Assembly: GCA_900323505.1 (NCBI GenBank)
Contig: OOIN01000029.1
Coordinates: 1-64,000 of the forward strand
DNA: 64,000 nt
Source of the DNA: Ustilago trichophora
Taxonomy: Eukaryota > Basidiomycota > Ustilaginomycetes > Ustilaginales > Ustilaginaceae
Direction: 5' to 3'
This document shows positions 1-12,220 of the stretch, piece by piece. The notes under the pieces are model-generated. The model was not told where the DNA came from, searched no databases, and was given only the letters and a program-made list of their open reading frames with translations. Both the position numbers and the translations under genes were made by a program. Position 1 is the stretch's first letter. Each line of letters starts with the position of its first letter.

Positions 1-146
1 CCTACCTAACCCTAACCCTAACCCTAACCCTAACCCTAACCCTAACCCTAACCCTAACCCTAACCCTAACCCTAACCCTAACCCTAACCCTAACCCTAAC
101 CCTAACCCTAACCTAACCCTAACCCTAACCCTAACCCTAACCCTAA
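1..146. repeat. Terminal telomere, (CCCTAA)n
   Basis: About 24 CCCTAA hexamers read inward from the left end, so the G-rich TTAGGG strand points outward as expected for a chromosome end. The first bases (CCTACCTAA) and one unit near 108-117 are a base short. The tract stops at 146 and abuts unit A directly, with no other subtelomeric filler. Confidence 0.98.
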
Positions 147-147
147 G

Positions 148-3089
148 TGCAGTGCGGACTGCAGCTGGCAGCATTGCTGAACGTGCTCCAGTCGCACCAG
201 CAGTAGGAGCGGGAAGAACTGGGACCGGTGCCGCTGATGGAAGCATGTGCTCCAGCTTTTGCTTGATGCATCGTACATCCTCCTGAAGGGAATCGAGCTG
301 CCGTTTCACAGCAGATGACATGGTTGTTGCCTCTGCTCTGCTGTTGGCTCCAGTGAGCTGATGGAGTGGCGGAATATCAGCTTGAAAGCAGGAACGCATG
401 CGCCAGAAGATATGCCACCGCTCCGAGACTTCCAACATAGCCGACATGCTCTGCTGATTCAACTGGTACAGCATGCTTGCATCAAGGCCGTAGTGCTGCT
501 CTGCTGTGTTGGTGGAATGACCAGCTTGAAGATCATGGACGTGATCCTCTGTATCTTCAGCATCGGCTTTCCTGGGCCGGATCAGTGTGCGGTCGATGCT
601 TACAGCCAGCTGCCGCCAAGTCCGCATTGTCAGGCCGCCAGAGGTTGAGCTGATGTATTGCTTGCAGAGACCTTGGAGCATCTTGCTGATGGTGTTTGTA
701 TCCCAAGGCTGTCCTGCATGATCCACCAAGAGCATTGCGCTAGCCTCACGGGGCTTGACAACCGAGTTGTAGAGCAGGTGGACGAATGGCACTACCTGGC
801 AGACGTAAAGCACCACAAGACAACCCACTTCATGCGGCAGGAACCGAGGGATGATCTTTTGACGGCCAGTACCTTTGTTGCTGGGAAGTGCCGTAAAGAG
901 CCGGCCGTCATGGACAAAGAGATTGCGAGGGCCGCTGAGCGTGTTTGTGTGCTGCAATTGGAGCAGCTCCGTACCACGTGCTGGCAGACCGCTTCCAAGC
1001 TCAATGAGCACCGCAAGCAGCTTGGTGAACTCATTGTGAATGGCAAAGTAGGAGCGGGCAGCATTGGTGTCAAACTCTAGCTCGTCAGAGTAGGGATCCA
1101 TGAGCGGCTGAGCAGCCGGTGCACCACCTGCAACTGCTCGGCAAAGGATGCTGGGTAGGACCGGCGGCTCCAAGCAGGCTCTGGCAAAATTGAAGCCTGG
1201 CTGCATGTTGCAGTGGTTATCGGTGATGCGGCTGAGGTCCATGATGTGAATGTCCTTCTCCTCTGCCAGAAGTCGTAGCTGCGTGAGCAGCTTCTCTGCT
1301 TGCTGTTGCGCTCCATGCATGAGCTCTTGCAGGCGCTCCACTGCTATCTCCTCCAAGCCAAACATGACTCTGCTAAGATCCTTGCTCCAGCGGAATTTGA
1401 AGCTGCTCCCATCATCGTGTGCAAGTGCTTCACCAAACCGGTGAAGAGACTGCAGATGTGAGCTTGCAGAACTGCTATCGTGATGCACATAGCGCTTCAG
1501 TGTCTGGATCACTGCAGCTGACGTCTCTGGTGCAGACATGCCTTGGAGTGCACCGTCCTCAGGATGAAGGAGGTGCTCGTGCAGCACTGCCCGGAGACAA
1601 AACTCCAGACTGGCAATCTCCGATGTGCTAGTGCTGACCGGCTTGGGAGTGCCGTCCCTGCTGACGCAAAGGTGCAAAAACATCCGCACAAGTGCAAGCT
1701 TCTCGATCTGACCGTATTCCTCTGGCTCTTGCGTGACCAGGCTATGCGATAGTTCCAGAAGCAGTGCACTTGTCTTGGCCACCACTGCAGGATCCTTGTA
1801 GATGTCCAGGCCAACGTTGATGATCGTGTTGTACTGTTCACGTAGGTCCAGCAGCGCAGAGTAGATCTCTTCATTGACACCGATGTGATCTTCCGGGTCG
1901 TCCTTGCCAAAGTAATCCAGAGAGCCACCGTCAAAGTAGATGTGGAACAAGAGCGCCAGTAGCCATGCCCAGAGATCAGCACGTTTCTTGACGGTTGGCG
2001 GACTGAGATCGTACGGCTTGCTTGGAGCGTCACTGTAAGCGTGGAACGTCTGCTGCACCTGACGGCCAGCCTTGAGCAAGCGGTTCATCCAGGTCGCAAC
2101 TACGTCTTTGGCAACCACAAAGATCCAATGTGCAATGTCGCAGTGAGCACCATCCCAGTCCTCAGGAATGCGGCCAAGCATGCCAATGGCCACCACCGGT
2201 TTGCCAGCCCAGTAGCGGTGCCAGTTGAGCTGACGGGCCCATGGTGTGACGTTTCCGCTGACTACAGCCGGCTGAATGCCAGGCTGCACAAGACCGGCCT
2301 CTTGCATGCGCTCTTGATCTTTCTTGATGAAGGCATTGACCTTGGCCTTGGTGACATCGTCCAGCTTGTCAGCATCCATGGCCGTGGTCAGGATGGCAGG
2401 TGGAGGAGTCGGCTCCAGAGATGGATTGCTGACGTAGAGGTAGCGACGGCTCTGCCCATTTTCATAGAAAAGCTGGACCGGAACAGGGTGAAGATACTTG
2501 CTGTCGCTATCAGCCTTGCCATGCTCACATACATGATTATTCATGGATGAGCGGGCCATGATGCTGTACGAGCACATGTTGCAGTGACGGCCTTGATAGT
2601 TGATGTCCAGCTCCTTGATGATGGGCACCGGCAGCAGATCCTTGTTGATGGTGACGGTGGCAGGGTGCTCCAGGTCCAGTCGCTCCAACAGATCCTTGAG
2701 TGCTTTCTTGGATGATTCGACCATGGCGTGCATGTGGGATTTCTTGAGATGAGCGATGACATCCTTGAAGAACGGAGGAATGGCAAGCCGGTGAGTGCAG
2801 TCAATGCGGGTGCAGACAAGAATGCGGGGATGGTCCACCAGATGGAGGTGGAAGCGGCCAAGCTGAGCGGCAAGCTTGGGATCCACCGCAGGAGAACAAG
2901 CATCCTGGTTGGCGGGGGGAAGCGCAAAACTGAAAAGCATAGAGAGTGTCAGTAACGTATCCCCATTACAGCAAGAAGCTAGCAGAGCTGAACGTACCTC
3001 TCCACATGAGCAGTAGAGACAGACTCAGCGGCAAGAGAGTTGTTGTCATTGACAACGGCACCAAGAGAGCGGGCAGAAAGCTGAGACAT
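148..3089 (-). CDS. C2H2 / tyrosine-recombinase-like protein, copy A, open into the telomere
   Basis: Two exons: 3089-2998 (ATG, 30 codons plus 2 nt) and 2929 downward, with a 68-nt GTACGT...TTTCAG intron. I read the exon 2 frame codon by codon and found no stop as far as the telomere boundary (958 codons). There the frame continues into TTAGGG repeats as Arg-Val, so the gene has no stop codon in the window. The protein has two zinc-finger-like Cys/His pairs near the N-terminus. The C-terminal recombinase-like block has ARGTELL, a KGTGRQK lysine, RTWRQ, then AGHSTNTAEQHYG. Past the point where copy B ends it adds about 85 residues with a short coiled-coil-like stretch. Fungal telomere-linked RecQ genes carry a similar N-terminal module, so a helicase part may have been lost; that is inference. 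No function has been shown for this protein. Confidence 0.8.
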
Positions 3090-3200
3090 TGTAGCGTAGA
3101 GGTTTTGGGAGGTTGCAATGGAAAGTGAGAGTTGTACGGTGAAGATATACTGAGATGGAAAGATGTAGTCAGAACGGCAGCAACAGGCCGCAAGATGGCC

Positions 3201-3210
3201 AGTATATATG
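3201..3210 (-). promoter_or_regulatory. TATA-like element of copy A
   Basis: TATATAT lies about 115 bp upstream of the copy A ATG. Copy B has the same AGTATATATG string at nearly the same distance from its ATG. Conservation of sequence and spacing between diverged copies supports a real promoter. Confidence 0.55.
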
Positions 3211-3296
3211 CACAAACACCTCAGTCTCACACATAGCAGAGTTGCACAGCGGTACGGTATGCCAAATGTCTTTGCCGTCACAGAGATCCTGAAGTT

Positions 3297-3335
3297 GCTA
3301 GCGGTAGCGGCTAGCGGTAGCGGCTAGCAGTAGCG
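3297..3335. repeat. 13-bp tandem repeat, three units
   Basis: Three adjacent copies of GCTAGCGGTAGCG, the third with one substitution. Each unit contains an NheI-like palindrome (GCTAGC). The array is upstream of copy A and was not seen upstream of copy B. Confidence 0.9.
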
Positions 3336-4257
3336 GCTGGAACAAAGCAGAGACAGGGGATGAGAGCGCCGCTGTGAGCGGTGCTGAACAGAAAGCACAG
3401 ACTGGTAGAGATGTTGTATGGTACACGCAGAGCAGCATTGGCAAGGAACAAAGCATTTACCTATGTGTTCTGCTTGCTTACATTGTTGCTACGCAGCATG
3501 GGAGCGGCACAGGTGAGAAGAAAGCGATCAAATGTGCTGGCCATTGGCATTAGTGGACGGCCGTGTGACAGGAACAATGCATTCAGTGAAGCCGGCATGA
3601 GTTGCCCAAATGTGGGAGAAAGGACTCAAAATTGTTTGCGGTGACTGAATGGTCACGTCAAGTGAGCAACGCTTTGTGCTTGAAATTGACGTGTATGTGT
3701 AGGCTGTCACAAAGCGTCAGCCATTTTTCCCATCAAGTTGTGAGGCGTATTCACAGTGACCGCTGCCTTTGTTCAACAGCTGTCAAAGGGCATCGTGAAT
3801 TGTGGGAGCCGCTCAGTCTGCACATTTCAAGGCATTTTGCAGTTGCAAAAGATAATGGTGCTGGTGGGCTTTCATTGACGTATGGATGATTTCTCTTTGC
3901 TTTGACCGGTAGCCGTGGACAATTCAGAGACGGCCGGTGGCCGCTGCTTGACCAGAATGAAAATGCCAACCAAATTTTCACATCAGCTGCTGACCACGAC
4001 GCGTCTGCCATCATTATCACGGTCATTTTCATACCCCATTTTTTGGAACAATTTGTAGCATCAACACATATATTGTTTGTCAAGCATGTACACGCTATTT
4101 TCTGTGGTCATTCCTGCCAAGATTCACCTCTACTGAAATCACTGCTACCAGGAAGCTGTCGCTGGCTCACATTTGCAGTCGTAGCAAGGCTAGTTGTGTG
4201 CTGGCTGCTGGAGTTGTCTATTGCATGCGGAGCGCTGAATGCCTAGCAATGGCTGCT

Positions 4258-4397
4258 GCTGAGTGACGGACGGCAACAGCAGGATGCTGAGTGCTGGATG
4301 GCGACAGCACGATGCTGAGTGACGGACAGCAACGGCAGGATGCTGAGTGCCGGACAGCGACGGCAGGATGCTGAGTGCTGGATGGCAGGCGCAGGAT
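4258..4397. repeat. 28-bp tandem repeat, five units
   Basis: Five head-to-tail units at 4258, 4286, 4314, 4342 and 4370, each beginning GCTGAGTG and ending (A/C)GAT, with alternating ACGGAC / CTGGAT variants inside. Units are directly adjacent with no spacers, so this is a minisatellite. Similar GTGACGGACAG strings are scattered upstream of copy B without a regular period. Confidence 0.92.
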
Positions 4398-4621
4398 GCT
4401 GACCGCTGGGCACTCTGTCAGTGTCTGGGAATTGAAATAATTTCTGAGAATTTTGACGCGTCTCTTGGATGCTGGGCCGCTGCCTCAGCCAAGGAAAATT
4501 TCAAACCGTTGCGGCACTTGGCCAGTGTCTTTTCCGGTGTCCGCTGGGTTCAGCAGCCGAGGCCCGACGCGTCCATTTGGCAGAGCGGCCGTGTCCGCTG
4601 CCGGCATTGGAGAACCCACGG

Positions 4622-4633
4622 CCTAGGGCTAGG
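4622..4633. repeat. CTAGGG telomere-like boundary of unit A
   Basis: CCTAGGGCTAGG closes unit A. It differs from TTAGGG by one base and is oriented opposite to the terminal CCCTAA tract, so unit A is bracketed by inverted telomere-like sequence. Unit B ends the same way. Confidence 0.7.
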
Positions 4634-5424
4634 ATAAAGCTTGGAAGCATAGGTTGCTGCTGAAGTTGAACTGTACGGGTACATATGCTGTGGCCGTTTG
4701 ATGTAGGATCAACTGAGGTGACCAAAAGCTCAAGTACCTTGTCCAACTTTACTGTACCTTTTTGGTACCTCAATTTCTGCCTCTCTCTTCAGGTATTTCT
4801 TTTTTCACTGAGGATGAAGTACTCTTGACCAACTACAACTGCAGTTCAACCCAAACAACCACCTCAGTATACCAGGGACTGTCAAAGTTGACCCAAGTCT
4901 TCTGGAGTAGTGGACAAGTTGACCCTTCAGCAGTTGGAACTTCATCTTGAGTGGTAGTATCCTTGGGTAGCTCCAACTGCAGGGTTGCCTTGCATCAGGT
5001 CCAGTACAGCTTGGGTGGCTGGACCTTGATCAACCTTTGCGGTACTTGACCAAGGTTGAACGCCATTGCTGCTGAAGTTGCACTGAGGTGCTTCTGTAGT
5101 TTGCTTAAGATGATGAGATGTGACCTGTAGTCAGCTGGAGATGGAAGCAGTTGCTTGAACTTGAACTGCCTTCAACCTTTGGAGACTTGCGGTGGAGCTG
5201 TAGATGATCCTAGATCAGTACCTTGTACCTGGTAGACCCTCAGGTGAACGTTGGGCCAAGTTCCGCTAACTTCGAGTTGGAAAATTCGCATTTTTGACCC
5301 TTTCATTCTTTTAATTTGCATCTTCCCTTCCTATTTATCACTCCATATTCACCCAACTTCCTCCTGAACTTTCCCCCACTTCAACTGCACCTCAACCTCA
5401 CCTTTCGCTACCTTGCTGGCAGTC
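4634..5424. other. Left flank of the OTU block, no gene
   Basis: Sequence changes character sharply after CTAGG: CpG becomes rare and strings such as ACTTG, CAAGTT and GGTACC recur, as in the OTU gene. I see no coding region. Pyrimidine-rich sequence from about 5300 to 5424 probably holds the promoter and leader of the OTU gene. Confidence 0.55.
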
Positions 5425-7464
5425 ATGCCACCTTCATCTGCACCAGATTGGTACTGGCAACTTCAGGAACTTGGATTACTGGAGTTCCCAGCACCTTCAG
5501 CCCCACCTTACCCCAAGTTACCCCAGGATCTAGATGGGTTCTCCTTCACTACAAGTCCCTATGTCCTTCAGATCCTGTTTGGTACCCTCAGTCAAGTTAC
5601 CTTGGCCTCACATGCACCCAAGATAAGGGACCATAAGTACTACAGCACTTGGGTATACCTAGGTACTGGCCCCTGTGTTCTGAAGATCCATCCTCAGTAC
5701 AAGGAACCTCTCCTTGGGGCATTCCAAGTTACCCACAGTTTACAGCCCTCTGACTACCCTATAACTATGATAGAAGGTACCCAGCATGTTACCATGTGGG
5801 ACCTTGTGGATAAGTTGGATGAAGTTGGTTGCACTTCAGTCCGGGTTCAAAGTTATGGGATGAAGTTTGACCTCAGTGACCTTGGGCAATACCAGCTGGA
5901 GGACATAGGTGATCCTGAACATCCCCTAGGTTCAACCAACTTCTTTGATGTTGGACAGAACTACCCCCAACCTCACATCACCTTGGCCCTAGCTCCCAAC
6001 CTACCCAAAGATAGTTGTACTACCTACCCCATGCTCATGAGGTTAGGGGAAGGGCATGGTTCACTTCAGATCAACCTCAGGTACCGAGGGGATACCTTCA
6101 GGATCAAGATCTACCCCCTACTTGTACATTGCATGAAGGCAACTTCAGGTAAGTTCAACAACTACACACCCAAGTTCATCCAAGGTATGAAGCTCAAGGA
6201 AACCAACTTGATGAACAGGAGACTCAAGTTGGCCAAGTTCCCTGCACTTAAACTTGGTGGACTGAGGGTGGAAGTTACTGCTTTTGGAAGGTGTCTTCAG
6301 GAAGCCAAGGCAAAGGTGGATGATAGTAGGTTGTTGGACCTTCACCAGTGGTTGAACCCCACTTTACCTCACATGGCCAACTGTCAACTTAGGGTCAAGT
6401 TCATCAAGAAGAGGGACTACTTCAGCAACTTCAGGGAACTCCTCAGTAAAGCTCAACACCTTGGGGTCTTCAGAGGTGACAACTCAAGGAAACCCGGGAA
6501 GGTACGTACCTACATACTCCAGGACTTGTTCAATGCCCTAGGTTGGAACTCAGGAACTAGGACCAATAGGTGGGAGAAGGACCTTGGACCTTGGTGGACT
6601 TGGGTACCAACCAAGGCTGACATAGACTCAGCTTTGGAGAAGGTGGTTGAACCTGAGGCCAACTTCAGGAACCCCTTACTTGAAGATGTTCATGTGGAGG
6701 AGATCCTCAGGTGTACCAAGATCTACAAAAGGGGAACCAAGTTCAGGGCGGTTGTACTTGATGAAGATGGGAAGCATAGGAACTTTGGCTCCAGTACAAC
6801 CAAGTTGGAGTTGGCCAAGATCCTTTTTGCCAAGTACAAGTACCATTGGACCAAGTACTGCTACCTTGTGGAGGAACCTTTCCCAAGTTCCCAAAGTACA
6901 CCTACCTTGGATGCGGAGTTGGAGAAGTACAACCTCCTTGGAACCTATGTTATTGGTCCTTTGGAGCTCTTCCATGAACTTAAAGGTTCCAACAACTACA
7001 GGGTCACCTCAGGATACATCAGGGGAGATGGGAATTGCCAGTTCAGGGTACTTTCCAAGGTAGTTTATGGTCACCAGAAACATCACCCAAAGGTCAGGCA
7101 ACTGGTGGTCAAGTACCTACAAGAGAACAGAGATAAGGTGGAGGCGGTTGTAGCTGCCAGTGATCTGAGGCAAACTGCCTTTACTCCAGCTAGAACTGTA
7201 GATGCCTATCTTCAAAGTATGGCCAACCTGGGTACATGGGGGGATGATGCTACCTTATCTGCAGCAGTCCATGTGTTCAACCTCTGCTTAGTGGTGATCA
7301 ACACAGACCTTACCCACTTTGAACTTAGGAAACCTGGTACACCTGCAGATGATGTGCAGTGGCATGCAGTTTACTATACTGGCAACCACTATGAACTGGT
7401 GTACAGGTTACCTTTCCTGATCCCAGCCCAAGCTGCTGCCCAAGCTGCCAGACCTTCATCCTAG
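5425..7464 (+). CDS. Large protein with C-terminal OTU-type cysteine protease domain
   Basis: An intact 679-codon reading frame from the first in-frame ATG; no intron is needed. The C-terminal 150 residues look like an OTU domain: GDGNCQFRVLS with the predicted nucleophile Cys538 and nearby Asp535, a middle WGDDATLSAAVHVFNL segment, and YYTGNHYELVYRL with the predicted catalytic His655. OTU proteases cleave ubiquitin or related linkages, so deubiquitinase-like activity is the family expectation. The first roughly 500 residues resemble nothing I recognise. The gene sits between two telomere-like boundaries and has about nine CpG dinucleotides in 2 kb, counted by eye, very unlike the chromosome-arm genes. 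An intact frame in such biased DNA suggests a mobile or recently selected subtelomeric gene. Confidence 0.8.
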   Translation: MPPSSAPDWYWQLQELGLLEFPAPSAPPYPKLPQDLDGFSFTTSPYVLQILFGTLSQVTLASHAPKIRDHKYYSTWVYLGTGPCVLKIHPQYKEPLLGAFQVTHSLQPSDYPITMIEGTQHVTMWDLVDKLDEVGCTSVRVQSYGMKFDLSDLGQYQLEDIGDPEHPLGSTNFFDVGQNYPQPHITLALAPNLPKDSCTTYPMLMRLGEGHGSLQINLRYRGDTFRIKIYPLLVHCMKATSGKFNNYTPKFIQGMKLKETNLMNRRLKLAKFPALKLGGLRVEVTAFGRCLQEAKAKVDDSRLLDLHQWLNPTLPHMANCQLRVKFIKKRDYFSNFRELLSKAQHLGVFRGDNSRKPGKVRTYILQDLFNALGWNSGTRTNRWEKDLGPWWTWVPTKADIDSALEKVVEPEANFRNPLLEDVHVEEILRCTKIYKRGTKFRAVVLDEDGKHRNFGSSTTKLELAKILFAKYKYHWTKYCYLVEEPFPSSQSTPTLDAELEKYNLLGTYVIGPLELFHELKGSNNYRVTSGYIRGDGNCQFRVLSKVVYGHQKHHPKVRQLVVKYLQENRDKVEAVVAASDLRQTAFTPARTVDAYLQSMANLGTWGDDATLSAAVHVFNLCLVVINTDLTHFELRKPGTPADDVQWHAVYYTGNHYELVYRLPFLIPAQAAAQAARPSS

Positions 7465-7525
7465 TTCATCCTACCTCATCTGTACATACACTCCACTTGT
7501 AGATAGTTGCTCCTAGCTTGTAGTT

Positions 7526-7550
7526 CCTCAGACTTCATCTGAGGTTTTTT
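7526..7550 (+). terminator. Hairpin plus T-tract downstream of the OTU gene
   Basis: A perfect 7-bp stem (CCTCAGA / TCTGAGG) with a 5-nt loop is followed by six Ts, 62 bp after the stop codon. The layout resembles a bacterial intrinsic terminator or a Pol III stop, which is unexpected behind a fungal protein gene. Its function is not known. Confidence 0.45.
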
Positions 7551-7553
7551 CAT

Positions 7554-7584
7554 CTCCAGTAACCCCCAGTTGCTGGAGGTTTTT
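7554..7584 (+). terminator. Second hairpin plus T-tract
   Basis: A 10-bp stem with one mismatch (CTCCAGTAAC / GTTGCTGGAG) around CCCCA, followed by G and five Ts. It starts three bases after the T-tract of the first hairpin, giving a tandem pair. Confidence 0.4.
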
Positions 7585-8128
7585 CCTCACAATGAAGTAC
7601 CTTTCTCCATCTTGCCTTCAGTTGATCTTGAGTGTGTCGGTACTTGAAGGTAGTGTTGACTGAGGTTGCACCCATGTTCACCCAAGTTCATCTCCAGTTC
7701 CTGAACTTTGCCCCATGTTACCGGTACTTGACCACACTTCCCTCAGTTCACCCCTAGTTTCCTCAAGTTCACCCAAGTATCCACCCAAGTACAAACCTAC
7801 CATCCAACCAGGGATGAAGTGCCTGAGAATGCCAACTTTGGACCCGTCTACCACCGTGACCAGCCATCCTGGAGCACTCATACTGTGCAGACACTATCTC
7901 CTAGCACTTCTCCACATATCTCATTAAGACACAAACCACTTTGGAGGTGATCAAAAACTTTTTTTTTCTCCCCGGGTGATCACCCCTCCGCAACTTTGAC
8001 GGCCCATAGCTCGGTGACCGCGGTACGCGGTAGCGTCAGACTTTGCATACACCCCCCTCTAGGGTATTCCTACATATCTCATTAGTACAGATTTGCAGTT
8101 GTGCGGCACCTTGGTGGGAGTACCCTTG
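7585..8128. other. Right flank of the OTU block, no gene
   Basis: Still CpG-poor up to about 7960, then a T-tract and the 12-bp palindrome GGGTGATCACCC (7974-7985). The string ACATATCTCATTA occurs twice, near 7913 and 8074. The block ends in CCCTTG directly against the internal telomere. I see no coding region. Confidence 0.5.
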
Positions 8129-8166
8129 TAACCCTAACCCTAACCCTAACCCTAACCCTAACCCTA
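8129..8166. repeat. Interstitial telomere, about six CCCTAA units
   Basis: TAACCC repeats in the same orientation as the terminal telomere, joined at 8166/8167 to the coding sequence of copy B. Orientation and junction fit a former chromosome end that was later extended by the OTU block and unit A. Direct insertion of telomere repeats is the alternative. Confidence 0.93.
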
Positions 8167-10870
8167 TGCATGCCACCGCTCTGACACTTCCAACATGACA
8201 TCCATGCTCTCTTGCGTGAGCTGATGCAGCATGCTTGCATCCAGGCCATAGTGCTGCTCTGCAGTCCGTGTTGAATGTCCAGCTTGAAGATCGTGAGCGC
8301 TGTCCAACACCTCTTCTGCAGTCATGGACCTCGGACGGATGAGCTTGCGGTCAATGCTCACTGCCAGTTGCCGCCAAGTGCGCATGTTGAGGCCAGCCGT
8401 GATGGAGCTGATGTGCTCCTGGCAGAGTGCTTGCAGCATCTTGGTGACAGCATTTGTCTCCCATGCATTGCCGTGATGGTCCACCAAAAGCATAGAGCTG
8501 GCCGCACGGGGCTGCAGCACTGCATTATGTAGGAGATGGACAAATGGCACCACCTGAGCTACGTAAAAGACCACCATGCATCCCACTGGGTATGGCAGGA
8601 AGCGTGGAATCACCTTTTGACGTCCAGTGCCTTTCTTGCTGGGCAGAGCGGTGAAGACACTGCCATCATGCACAAAGAGGTTGCGTGGACCAACAAGCGT
8701 GTTGGTGTGCTGCAATTGGAGCAGCTCTGTACCTCTTGCAGGCAGACCGCTACCAAGCTCAATGAGCACCGCAAGCAGCTTGGTGAATTCATTGTGCATG
8801 CTGAAGTACGCATTGGCAGCATCTGCATCGAACTCCAACTCATCAGAGTATGGATCCATGAGGGGTTGCGCAGCAGGTACGTTACCAGCAGCAGCACGGC
8901 AGAGAACACTGCTGATGCTCTGCAGCTCCGGAGAAGCAGTCACAAAGCTGAAGTCTGGTTGCATGTTGCGGTGATCATCCAGAATGTGCTTCAGGTTGAG
9001 CGCAAGTGATGCATCCTCTGGCAAAAGGCAGAGCTGACGTAGCAAAGCTTCTGCCCGCTTTTGCGCACCATGCATCAGAGCTTGGAGACGGTCCACTTGG
9101 ATGGTCTCTGTTCCAAACTTGACGCTCTTGAGATCTTGCTGCCAGGAAAAGTGGAAGTTGGTGCCATCATCTTGCGCAAGTACTGTGCCGTACCGGTGAA
9201 GGGATTGTAGGTATGAGCTGGCGGAGCTGCTGGTGCTGTACAGATAGCGCTTCATCTGTAGATCAACCTCGGCAGCAATCTCCTCAGCAGAGCGCTCAAT
9301 GAGCACACCGTCTTCTGGATCCAACAGCCACTGCCAGAGCACTGCACGGCAGCAGAACTCCAAGCTGGCAATGATGGACGTAGCGGCATTGACTGGAATG
9401 GGAGTGCCATCTGCACTGACGCAGAGGTGGAGGAACAGCCGTACCAAAGCAAGCTTGTCATTCTCACCATACACCTCTGGCTGTTGCGTGACCAAGAGGT
9501 GAGAGAGTTGGAGGAGGAGCGGCACTGCCTTGCTTGCCAGATCTTCATCAGTGAGCGGATCAATGTCTGCATCTGCACCGTAGTAAAGATCATGCAGATC
9601 TTGCAGTACAGAGTCCAGGTGTGCGCTGAGACCAAGATGCTCAGTCTGGTCACTGTCACCGTAATAGCCAAAAGAGACACCCTCAAAGACCGCATGGATA
9701 AGCAGAGCAAGTAAAAAGGCCCACATGTCCGCACGTTTCTTGACTGTTGGTAGGCTGAGGTTGTACGGCTGGCTTGGTTCAGGACTGTAGGCACGGAAAG
9801 TCTGTTGCACCTGCCTGCCAGTCTTGAGGAAAGCCGTCATCCATGTTGCGGCTGCTTGCTGTGTCATGACCAATACCCAATGGACAAAATCTATATGAGC
9901 ACCAGGCCACACCTTTTTTGACTTGCTGAGTGCACCAATGGCCACAATAGGCTTGCCGGCCCAGTACGCATGCCAACCCAGCTGCTTGGCCCAAGGACCA
10001 ATGTTGCCGCTGGCAGCTTCAGGCTGAATGCCTGGCTTGAGCAGGTCTGCTTCATGGAGGCAATCTTCATTCTGCTTGAGGAAGGCATCCACCTTTGTCT
10101 TGATATTGGCGCTGATGGTGCTGGCATCCAGAGCGGTGGTGAGAATGGCAGGAGGCGGTGTGGGATCCAATTCTTGATTGCGGACGTGAAGGTAGCGGAT
10201 CTTCTTGCCGCACTTGTGCAACTTCTGCATGGGAACAGGATGGGTGTATGATGCTCTGCCTTTAGCATCAGGATGCCCATGCAGATGCTCATAGAAAGCA
10301 GACTTGGCTTGGACAGCATAGGAGCACAAGTTGCAGCGGTAGCCTTGGAAGAGCTCACCCAGCTCAGGAATGATGCGCTCTGGCAGAAGATCCTTGTTGA
10401 TGCAGACCGTGCCAGGAGACGGTACATCCAGTTCATCAAGGAGGCTACGCAGCATCTCCTTGGCAGACCCAACCAGCGGCTTCTTGTGGACCTTCTTGAT
10501 GTGAGCCGTGACGTGCTTGAAGTCTGGGATGAGCGGCAATTGAGGACAACAGCTGTCCAGGGTGCAGAGCAGGATGTGGGGATGGTCCACCAAGCGTAAG
10601 TTGAAGCGTGCCAGCTGAGCGGTGTGCTGAGGATCCACTGGAGTGGAAATGGCGGTTTCTTGATTTGCGGCTTGGTTGGCAGCAGGGAGAGCGTGACTGA
10701 ATTCAAAAAATGCAAATAGTGATGTCAGTTGCTGATCATTGATGATGTGTGGTGATGATTGCCCAAACATACCTGTCCGTATCACTGACTGCGTCAATTG
10801 TGTTGATGCCTGCATCAACAAGTTCAGCAGCAAGTATGCTGTCATCAGGATGGAAAGATTGCTGAGACAT
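8164..10870 (-). CDS. C2H2 / tyrosine-recombinase-like protein, copy B, truncated by telomere
   Basis: Two exons, 10870-10773 and 10696-8164, with a 76-nt GTATGT...TTCAG intron at exactly the same place and phase as in copy A; 876 aa. Zinc-finger-like pairs start at Cys77 (CTLDSC...HIKKVH) and near residue 152 (CNLC...HLHGH). The recombinase-like set is Arg687 in ARGTELL, lysines near 720 (KKGTGR), Arg805/Arg808 in RTWRQ where a His would be usual, His840 in AGHST and Tyr849 in EQHYG, nine residues apart as in tyrosine recombinases. The last coding bases join the internal telomere, and the stop is the first TAG of TAGGGT. The roughly 85-residue tail of copy A is therefore missing. A 929-residue reading of the same frame ignores the intron and is unlikely. 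Confidence 0.85.
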
Positions 10871-12202
10871 GGTTGAAGAATTTGCTGGCGGTGGATAAGA
10901 GTGGTAGAGTACGGTAGAGAGAAGCTGGAATGGATTGTTGGATTGATGAGCAATGACGGTCAGCAACAGTCAGAAAGGCACAGTATATATGCTTCAGAGG
11001 AGACAAGGAGCGCACATAGCAAGCACAGTCAGATGTACACTGTCAAACATTCCAGCAAGCGTAACGGGTTGCAGCAACAGCCACTTGAAGCACTCAATGT
11101 GTCCAAGAGGGAAACGTACAAAGGTAAGATGGTTTCACTTGCGCTCACGCTCATACAGACACACACTGTCACTGTAAAGCAATCAAGTCAAGAAAGGATA
11201 GCGCAGATCTGTGAGCGGTGTGGAAAATTTTGTTTCAGTGACGGACAGACAAAGCTGTGCGGTGAGCAACAAGCAGACAAAGATCTGTGGTGTGTGACGG
11301 ACAATGGACAACAGACAAAGGTGTACAGCGTGTGAAGGACAGACAAGCATGTGGGTGCATGGTGGACAAAGGACAAGTACGTCAAAGTCAAGCTGTGAGA
11401 AAATCTGTCCGTCAAACACAAAGCAAACTCAAAGCAAAGGTCCACACTTGGGAGCATCTGAGTTAGCTTTGTTGGTTCCAGCCGTGAGAGTCATTGAAGG
11501 ATGTACACGCTGCCAAGATGAAATTACTGAAATTTGACGCGTCTGTCAGTCAGTCAGCGCAGAGTCAAATTGTGTGCGGTGCAATGAGAGTCCGTCTACT
11601 CATACCCAGACGCGTCACGCTCCTTGCTCCAAGGACACATTCCACTCTCAATTTTGAGGCCAGCATTCTGATCAGATTTTTTTGGCAGGCATGATTTTTG
11701 ACATTGTCTGTCAATGTTTGTATTTGAGTTTTGTCCATCTGCTGCAGTCCATGGGTACACATTGGTCACCGTCACACATCTGATCACTGCATATGTCTGC
11801 AGCAGGAATCACTTCCTCAATCATGTCTGCCAGTCAGTCACGTCTGTCACTTCACCAAGTCAGTCAGTCAGTCATGTCCGTCACTCATCCTGTCTGCCAG
11901 TCAGTGAAGTGACGGACAGCTCAGTGAGTCTGCTGGGTGAGTGGGCCACTCAGCCAAAAAGTTGGATTGGTCTGTCAGGCACTAGAGCAGTGTGGGTGAG
12001 CGTGTCTGTCACACTAGCAATTTCCCTGAATTTTGACGCGTCCATCACCCACCTGTCCGCTGCCCAGCCAAGGAAAAAGAATTTTCCGTTGCGGCACTGC
12101 ACCAGTGTTTTTTGACGCGTCCCTCAGGCTGACGGAGCGCGGTCAGGTTGGCCATTTTGGCAGGACGGACTGGTGCTTCTCCTGCGGCTGGCACACTGCG
12201 GC
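10871..12202. other. Upstream region of unit B, no gene
   Basis: This region holds many irregular direct repeats of GACGGACA, CAGTCAGTCA and GTCTGTCA (densest at 11230-11350 and 11820-11930). It also has four GACGCGTC palindromes (11536-11543, 11609-11616, 12035-12042, 12114-12121). From about 12030 to the end it aligns by eye with the end of unit A. No convincing open frame was seen. Confidence 0.65.
10982..10991 (-). promoter_or_regulatory. TATA-like element of copy B
   Basis: AGTATATATG, identical to the element upstream of copy A and also about 115 bp from the ATG. Confidence 0.55.
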
Positions 12203-12220
12203 CTAGGGCTAGGGCTAGGG
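12203..12220. repeat. (CTAGGG)3 boundary of unit B
   Basis: Three perfect CTAGGG hexamers end unit B, against two in unit A. They are inverted relative to the CCCTAA tract at the other end of the unit. The 240 bp between here and the next gene contain no feature I recognise. Confidence 0.8.

Follow-up and report, generated by a model that had tools for sequence, protein, structure and literature searches.

Do two telomere-bracketed units lying one behind the other at a chromosome end represent a mobile element, or a subtelomere that has been broken and healed repeatedly? The question is raised by the initial 64 kb (the window) of contig C28 of the Ustilago trichophora assembly (38.8 Mb, 45 contigs), where two units, A and B, each carry the front part of a telomere-linked helicase (TLH) gene. 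We conclude, with a probability of roughly 0.6, that units A and B are members of a family of one-ended mobile chromosome-end elements that are built on the TLH gene and joined to the chromosome at AGG. We hold it very probable that the units are mobile and have a fixed end; that the tyrosine recombinase (YR) of the TLH protein is the joining enzyme is a tentative proposal, to which we give slightly less than even odds.

Two truncated TLH units with a common proximal end

The units, their genes and the adjoining telomere repeats are placed as follows.

1-146, + strand: terminal telomere repeats CCCTAA, capping the cut unit A (repeat calls at 5-146)
147-4633, - strand: unit A, a truncated TLH unit of the type 2 (A-like) group, its gene pointing telomere-ward
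147-3089, - strand: TLH gene A (exon 1, 3089-2998; intron, 2997-2930; exon 2, from 2929 to the telomere junction)
4619-4633, + strand: fixed proximal end of unit A, CGGCCTAGGGCTAGG
8129-8166, + strand: interstitial telomere repeats, capping the cut unit B
8167-12219, - strand: unit B, a truncated type 1 TLH unit
8164-10870, - strand: TLH gene B (exon 1, 10870-10773; intron, 10772-10697; exon 2, from 10696)
12199-12219, + strand: fixed proximal end of unit B plus one additional GCTAGG copy

The first-pass annotation, made from the sequence, had described the two units as alike in orientation, gene, intron and TATA spacing, and this was confirmed. The units have the same orientation, the intron lies at an identical position in both genes, a TATA-like box, AGTATATATGC, starts 112 bp from the ATG in gene A (3201 versus 3089) and in gene B (10982 versus 10870), and the aligned coding blocks are 73 to 79% identical at the DNA level. 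It had also taken both borders of each unit to be exact, which is true of one side: the right end, CGGCCTAGGGCTAGG, is exact and is present at 4619 in unit A and at 12199 in unit B, whereas the left CCCTAA border is a variable truncation to which telomere repeats are attached. The telomere 12-mer was absent from all of 100 shuffles.

Genes A and B are 3'-truncated front parts of a TLH gene. Gene A is cut after 959 codons, has no stop codon of its own and remains open in frame into the telomere, its helicase part being gone; gene B is cut after 876 codons, and the telomere repeat supplies its stop codon. A full-length relative, P0003 (1,637 amino acids), extends beyond the point where both window copies stop and into a RecQ helicase domain, which grouped with RECQ5, BLM and other RecQ proteins in a profile search of solved structures. 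The domain order of the TLH protein is an OrsD-type zinc finger (E value of 2.1e-5 in gene A, just under the curated cut-off; weak in gene B, with an E value of 0.024), a helical region, the YR domain and RecQ. Three protein types were distinguished, namely type 1 (B-like), type 2 (A-like) and type 3 (found on C12), with 47 to 60% identity between types.

The protein had been called tyrosine recombinase-like, a view borne out by both fold and catalytic motifs. Re-examination of Foldseek matches with VIA-align, together with sequence motifs, showed that the modelled TLH proteins contain a real YR fold with conserved catalytic residues. The residues R, K, R, H and Y are present, although the usual H-x-x-R box has R at its first position here, and the motifs are complete in both genes. 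A Pfam scan of the YR part gave nothing at an E value of ≤1, neither DUF3435 nor GCR1_C; a distant kinship with Starships is possible.

490-978, - strand: YR catalytic span of gene A, R682 (976-978) to Y844 (490-492), from motifs and alignment, with the fold taken from the gene B model
8248-8736, - strand: YR catalytic span of gene B, R687 (8734-8736) to Y849 (8248-8250), from motifs and a fold model

A genome-wide count of the 15-mer CGGCCTAGGGCTAGG gave 54 occurrences (31 forward, 23 reverse) and none of its reversed control. A bias toward perfect ends was avoided by searching with sequence just inside the terminus, which located type 2 at 24 places and type 1 at 40 (2 for the reversed type 1 control); 4 of these 40 are internal and do not continue as an element. 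The fetched copies stop at one common base, with minor changes within the last 15 letters; the exceptions are loci L010 (AGA) and L108 (AG|T). In total there are 73 unit ends, 54 exact and 19 variant, the variant end at C29 right being known by position and not by its letters. Every one lies within 16.3 kb of a contig end, and 59 of the 90 contig ends are occupied, a contig end not always being a telomere, as at C9 left. A script scored 72 of the 73 as facing inward; the remaining end, which lies past the middle of the 27.9-kb contig C22 (telomere at the left), also faces inward. The fixed end thus faces the chromosome interior, at the promoter side of the unit, and the expectation that the same unit would recur at several chromosome ends holds with one exact border. 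Variation is confined to the distal border, while the common terminus is constant to the base; ordinary segmental duplication, in which borders would vary between copies, was rejected on this ground.

Sequence conservation extends inward from this terminus. The last 140 bp of the three families (five sequences, one of 123 letters) have in common the blocks GCGGCACT...CAGTGT and TTTGGCAG..CGG and the final 15 letters. The first block contains the inverted repeat CACT-N5-AGTG, which 16 of 17 distinct ends have at 102 to 104 bp from the final 15-mer; the repeat was present in 12 of 5,000 random 140-bp stretches of the window. By its sequence, the conserved block looks like a protein binding site.

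4515-4527: CACT-N5-AGTG inverted repeat, fixed end of unit A
12095-12107: CACT-N5-AGTG inverted repeat, fixed end of unit B

Empty sites and the AGG target

Beyond the fixed end, 61 flanks were compared, all distinct over their first 40 letters, a few of them being near-duplicates (e.g., C5 right and C30 right, 98.7% identical). An uninterrupted copy was present in the fetched sequence for 24 flanks. These represent 21 independent sites once F55 is dropped for its poor match (a minisatellite match within its own locus, where the left letters, GAAG, are a miss) and F26, F32 and F56, which share one minisatellite, are counted once; the 84 empty-site observations include repeats of some places, since loci overlap. 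The letters directly before the join at the 21 empty sites are AGG in 20 cases and AGA in 1, against an AGG background of 2.2% of flank positions. The preceding base is most often C (12 sites), followed by T (5), A (3) and G (1), and the base following the join is G in 36 of the 61 flanks. The preferred target is thus (C/T)AGG(G), which recalls the telomere repeat in short form; any further preference is not clear.

Four of the empty sites lie in the window.

6045-6047, + strand: empty AGG site in the OTU open reading frame (ORF), occupied by a TLH unit on C18
8061-8063, + strand: empty AGG site, occupied on C22
8875-8877, + strand: empty AGG site within gene B, occupied in the nested unit of C16
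12241-12243, + strand: empty AGG site flanking unit B; the C7 counterpart holds a TLH unit

Sites without the unit, which had been proposed as a check, therefore exist. They consist of AGG in genes, other units and repeats, and insertion of TLH units into telomere repeats was rejected. Of the telomere-targeted mobile element put forward in the first-pass annotation, there remains a chromosome-end element with one exact border and a YR; the second border and the telomere-repeat target fall away. An allele search with the 487-bp flank of unit B returned the flank itself and one 97% copy on C7, which is itself another occupied site; a separate joint search with 30 other flanks covered 40 of 239 candidates. 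For flank F11, two 73% copies read TTGG. At the left end of C11 (L041), the flank at the join reads ASIRDNILFGLDF in one frame; going by a motif, we take this to resemble an ABC transporter, and the unit there seems to be joined within a host gene.

The open telomeric end and how it may arise

The telomeric side of the units is not constant. Measured on the C16 copy, the cuts lie at 153 (C16), 294 (C7), 510 (C29), 699 (C4), 2066 (C11), 2380 (C23), 5128 (C19), 5654 (window unit B), 6133 (C30), 8039 (C16 right), 8493 (C32) and 8659 (C9 right); measured on the C30-right copy, they lie at 242 (C22) and 713 (C39). No two of these 14 mapped cuts are alike, the cuts of C2 and C18, which were not exactly placed, being outside the 14. 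The unit remnant on C37 is only about 36 letters long, and C21 right and C30 right have the same cut, with 99.9% identity over the 1.4 kb compared. At the joins, the unit has two letters or fewer in common with the telomere run, and there is a partial repeat of up to four letters. Telomere addition at broken ends gives variable cuts of this kind. Cryptons have short direct repeats of the target on both sides; of the TLH units, one end with AGG was found and no intact distal end.

The prediction that units stack one behind another is upheld. In the window, unit B was capped by telomere repeats, and the OTU segment and unit A were then placed outside it. On C16, a unit with a complete TLH gene has its join within the TLH gene of the following unit; the severed remainder of this second gene was not found distal to the join. 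A further example of nesting is provided by C2 and C30, which have the site in common. All of this fits a new unit taking the place of the distal end. Insertion with subsequent loss is also compatible with it, since the telomere has cut the outer units too and nested units consequently cannot separate the two.

We propose that the promoter-side terminus would be joined to a chromosomal AGG, with loss of the sequence formerly beyond it. The fixed end found in diverged families, the very short target and the presence of a conserved recombinase gene next to that end speak for joining by the YR that the element itself encodes, which would cut and join at AGG in a site-specific exchange of chromosome arms, possibly with the assistance of RecQ. 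The distal arm would be swapped and the unit would become the new chromosome end, by replacement rather than by insertion plus later trimming. Telomerase would add repeats that maintain or heal the open end, and later units would join AGG sites within earlier units, giving rise to the stacks.

Several observations weigh against this proposal. No unit with an intact distal end was found, and insertion followed by distal loss offers an alternative route. Two more decayed copies are internal to C43 (at about 110.5 and 120 kb of 168 kb; L116 and L117) and not at contig ends. L010 and L108, 2 of the 61 flanks, are joined elsewhere than at AGG; one empty site is AGA; and for F12 the closest copy (99.3%) reads CAGG, but copies of 96% read CAGA. 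Some empty copies are short (27 to 30 nucleotides: F23, F28 and F38) and others are diverged (77 to 88%: F50, F34, F45 and F30). The 3-bp shared target is smaller than the usual overlap of well-studied YRs, and Foldseek alone gave no match at an E value of ≤0.001 for either model. The worn ends of the two C43 copies face each other; they may be remnants of an old insertion or of earlier chromosome ends.

The main rival, which we regard as unlikely, is primed copying. A nicked or broken chromosome strand ending in CCT-3' would pair with the 3'-terminal AGG of an element strand or antisense RNA. Telomerase, a different reverse transcriptase or a DNA polymerase would then extend it, with a variable stop and a telomerase cap, as in terminal retrotransposition. 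This would account for the constancy of one unit end and the varied truncation of the other, for the three letters in common at the join and for the varying number of CTAGGG copies at the unit end. However, no reverse transcriptase domain was detected in the TLH, OTU and three distal ORFs scanned (the distal limit of the unit is not established), and the terminus folds as RNA no better than its shuffles (z scores of -0.59 to 0.72, four sequences). The template would, moreover, run antisense to the TLH gene, and the conserved YR would be left without a role.

We consider ordinary subtelomere turnover still less probable; here breakage, microhomology joining or break-induced replication would be followed by telomere healing, and the TLH genes would be passengers. 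Breakage and healing, which the first-pass annotation had named as the simpler alternative, match the telomeric side exactly; near-identical sequence at many ends fits exchange between ends, and the joins common to C2 and C30 and to C5 right and C30 right show that ordinary end duplication occurs too. What turnover leaves unexplained is the single exact proximal terminus: a base-exact end over 61 flanks and three diverged families is unexpected from random breaks, as is AGG at 20 of 21 empty sites. A linear extrachromosomal element captured at breaks via AGG microhomology end joining is very improbable: its telomere-like ends on both sides (CCCTAA outward, and CTAGGG) would explain why the G-rich strand runs outward at both ends, as in a small linear chromosome, but no free form is known (none was looked for), and end joining should trim variably, yet 59 of the 61 flanks join after CTAGG.

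Known elements and neighbouring segments

The proposed one-ended element resembles Cryptons and Starships in having a tyrosine recombinase, and in Starships the YR gene likewise comes first, reading inward from one end. Unlike those elements, which insert as two-ended elements, the TLH unit has one end, with the chromosome end as the other, and its YR is fused to OrsD and RecQ. The Y' elements of budding yeast are also subtelomeric helicase-coding repeats that spread between ends; however, they do so by homologous recombination, and we know of no YR in them. MoTeR and HeT-A lie at chromosome ends, are stacked and have one regular end and one truncated end, as the TLH units do. MoTeR, HeT-A and FoTeR code for retrotransposition proteins (reverse transcriptase in MoTeR and FoTeR), of which none was detected in the ORFs scanned here. 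FoTeR has the same placement and ends in excerpts of PMC12857005, and its junctions are telomere repeats, whereas the targets of TLH units are AGG in other sequence.

TLHs are a known multicopy subtelomeric family, which in Ustilago maydis includes UTASa, with RecQ, and UTASb, with a conserved core and/or an OrsD domain (excerpts of PMC10532341). The units analysed here share with these genes the subtelomeric location, the multicopy state, the OrsD part and the RecQ helicase. In the same excerpts, neither a YR domain nor a base-exact AGG end forms part of the description, and the window copies differ further in being without the helicase. Sporisorium scitamineum has 35 helicase genes at 22 chromosome ends and one RecQ paralog family of 61 members (excerpts of PMC4466345), and FoTeR retrotransposons adjoin TLHs in Fusarium (excerpts of PMC12857005). 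A term search of a fungal telomere review (PMC8381367, in the text available) found TLH named once and Cryptons and tyrosine recombinases absent. In a literature search whose coverage excluded most subscription journals, "telomere-linked helicase" and "tyrosine recombinase" never occurred together in one paper, and RecQ, tyrosine recombinase, transposable element and subtelomeric were never combined in one. Matches for Crypton and telomere included, by title, no such element, nor did any title for OrsD and recombinase among the matches listed (the best 10 of 15).

Many fungi have TLH genes at their chromosome ends, and it has long been uncertain what these genes do there. The conserved YR and the site-selecting terminus make it testable whether they are selfish end-adding elements or telomere maintenance genes. 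Fungal TLHs may be the transposition proteins (YR plus RecQ) of a one-ended element that uses telomerase as its second end, rather than host telomere genes, and the ascomycete TLH families, such as those of Fusarium, may be elements of the same kind; taken jointly, we regard these two suggestions as possible though doubtful. The Fusarium protein P0028 retains most YR residues. If TLH genes are such selfish elements, recombinase-type chromosome-end formation and arm exchange would be a route additional to telomerase, homologous recombination and telomeric retrotransposons, one that could account for the fluidity of smut subtelomeres.

Searches of the window found no tRNA and no Rfam match at the gathering score, and 16 pattern matches to viral contigs yielded no relative by tblastn. 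Whereas insertion of TLH units into telomere repeats was not seen, the segment between the two units does adjoin telomere repeats.

4634-8128, + strand: inter-unit segment with an OTU-domain ORF (5425-7464), its right end adjoining telomere repeats

The OTU-protease ORF has a 97% copy on C18, and 11 more subtelomeric ORFs are related to it (31 to 32% identity over residues 33 to 438 or less), located at contig ends of C1, C6, C8, C14, C15, C20, C27, C40 and C43; one of these, on C15, had no Pfam match. Together they make up a further chromosome-end gene family. A second recurrent end, ACCCTTGTAACCCTAA, has six copies in the genome, at 8122-8137 of the window and at C2 6720, C5 1350, C18 2894, and C22 15247 and 15772, all near left contig ends and differing downstream where read; a normal telomere repeat is part of it, and it is a possible marker of a further telomere-joined element. 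The longest unit, at the right end of C30 (L092), has three ORFs (902-2398, 5886-6863 and 2572-3651) distal of the TLH gene. The first two have weak matches to Tet_JBP dioxygenase (E values of 7e-5 and 0.047, both below the curated cut-off) and the third has none; the Tet_JBP-like ORFs are possible cargo.

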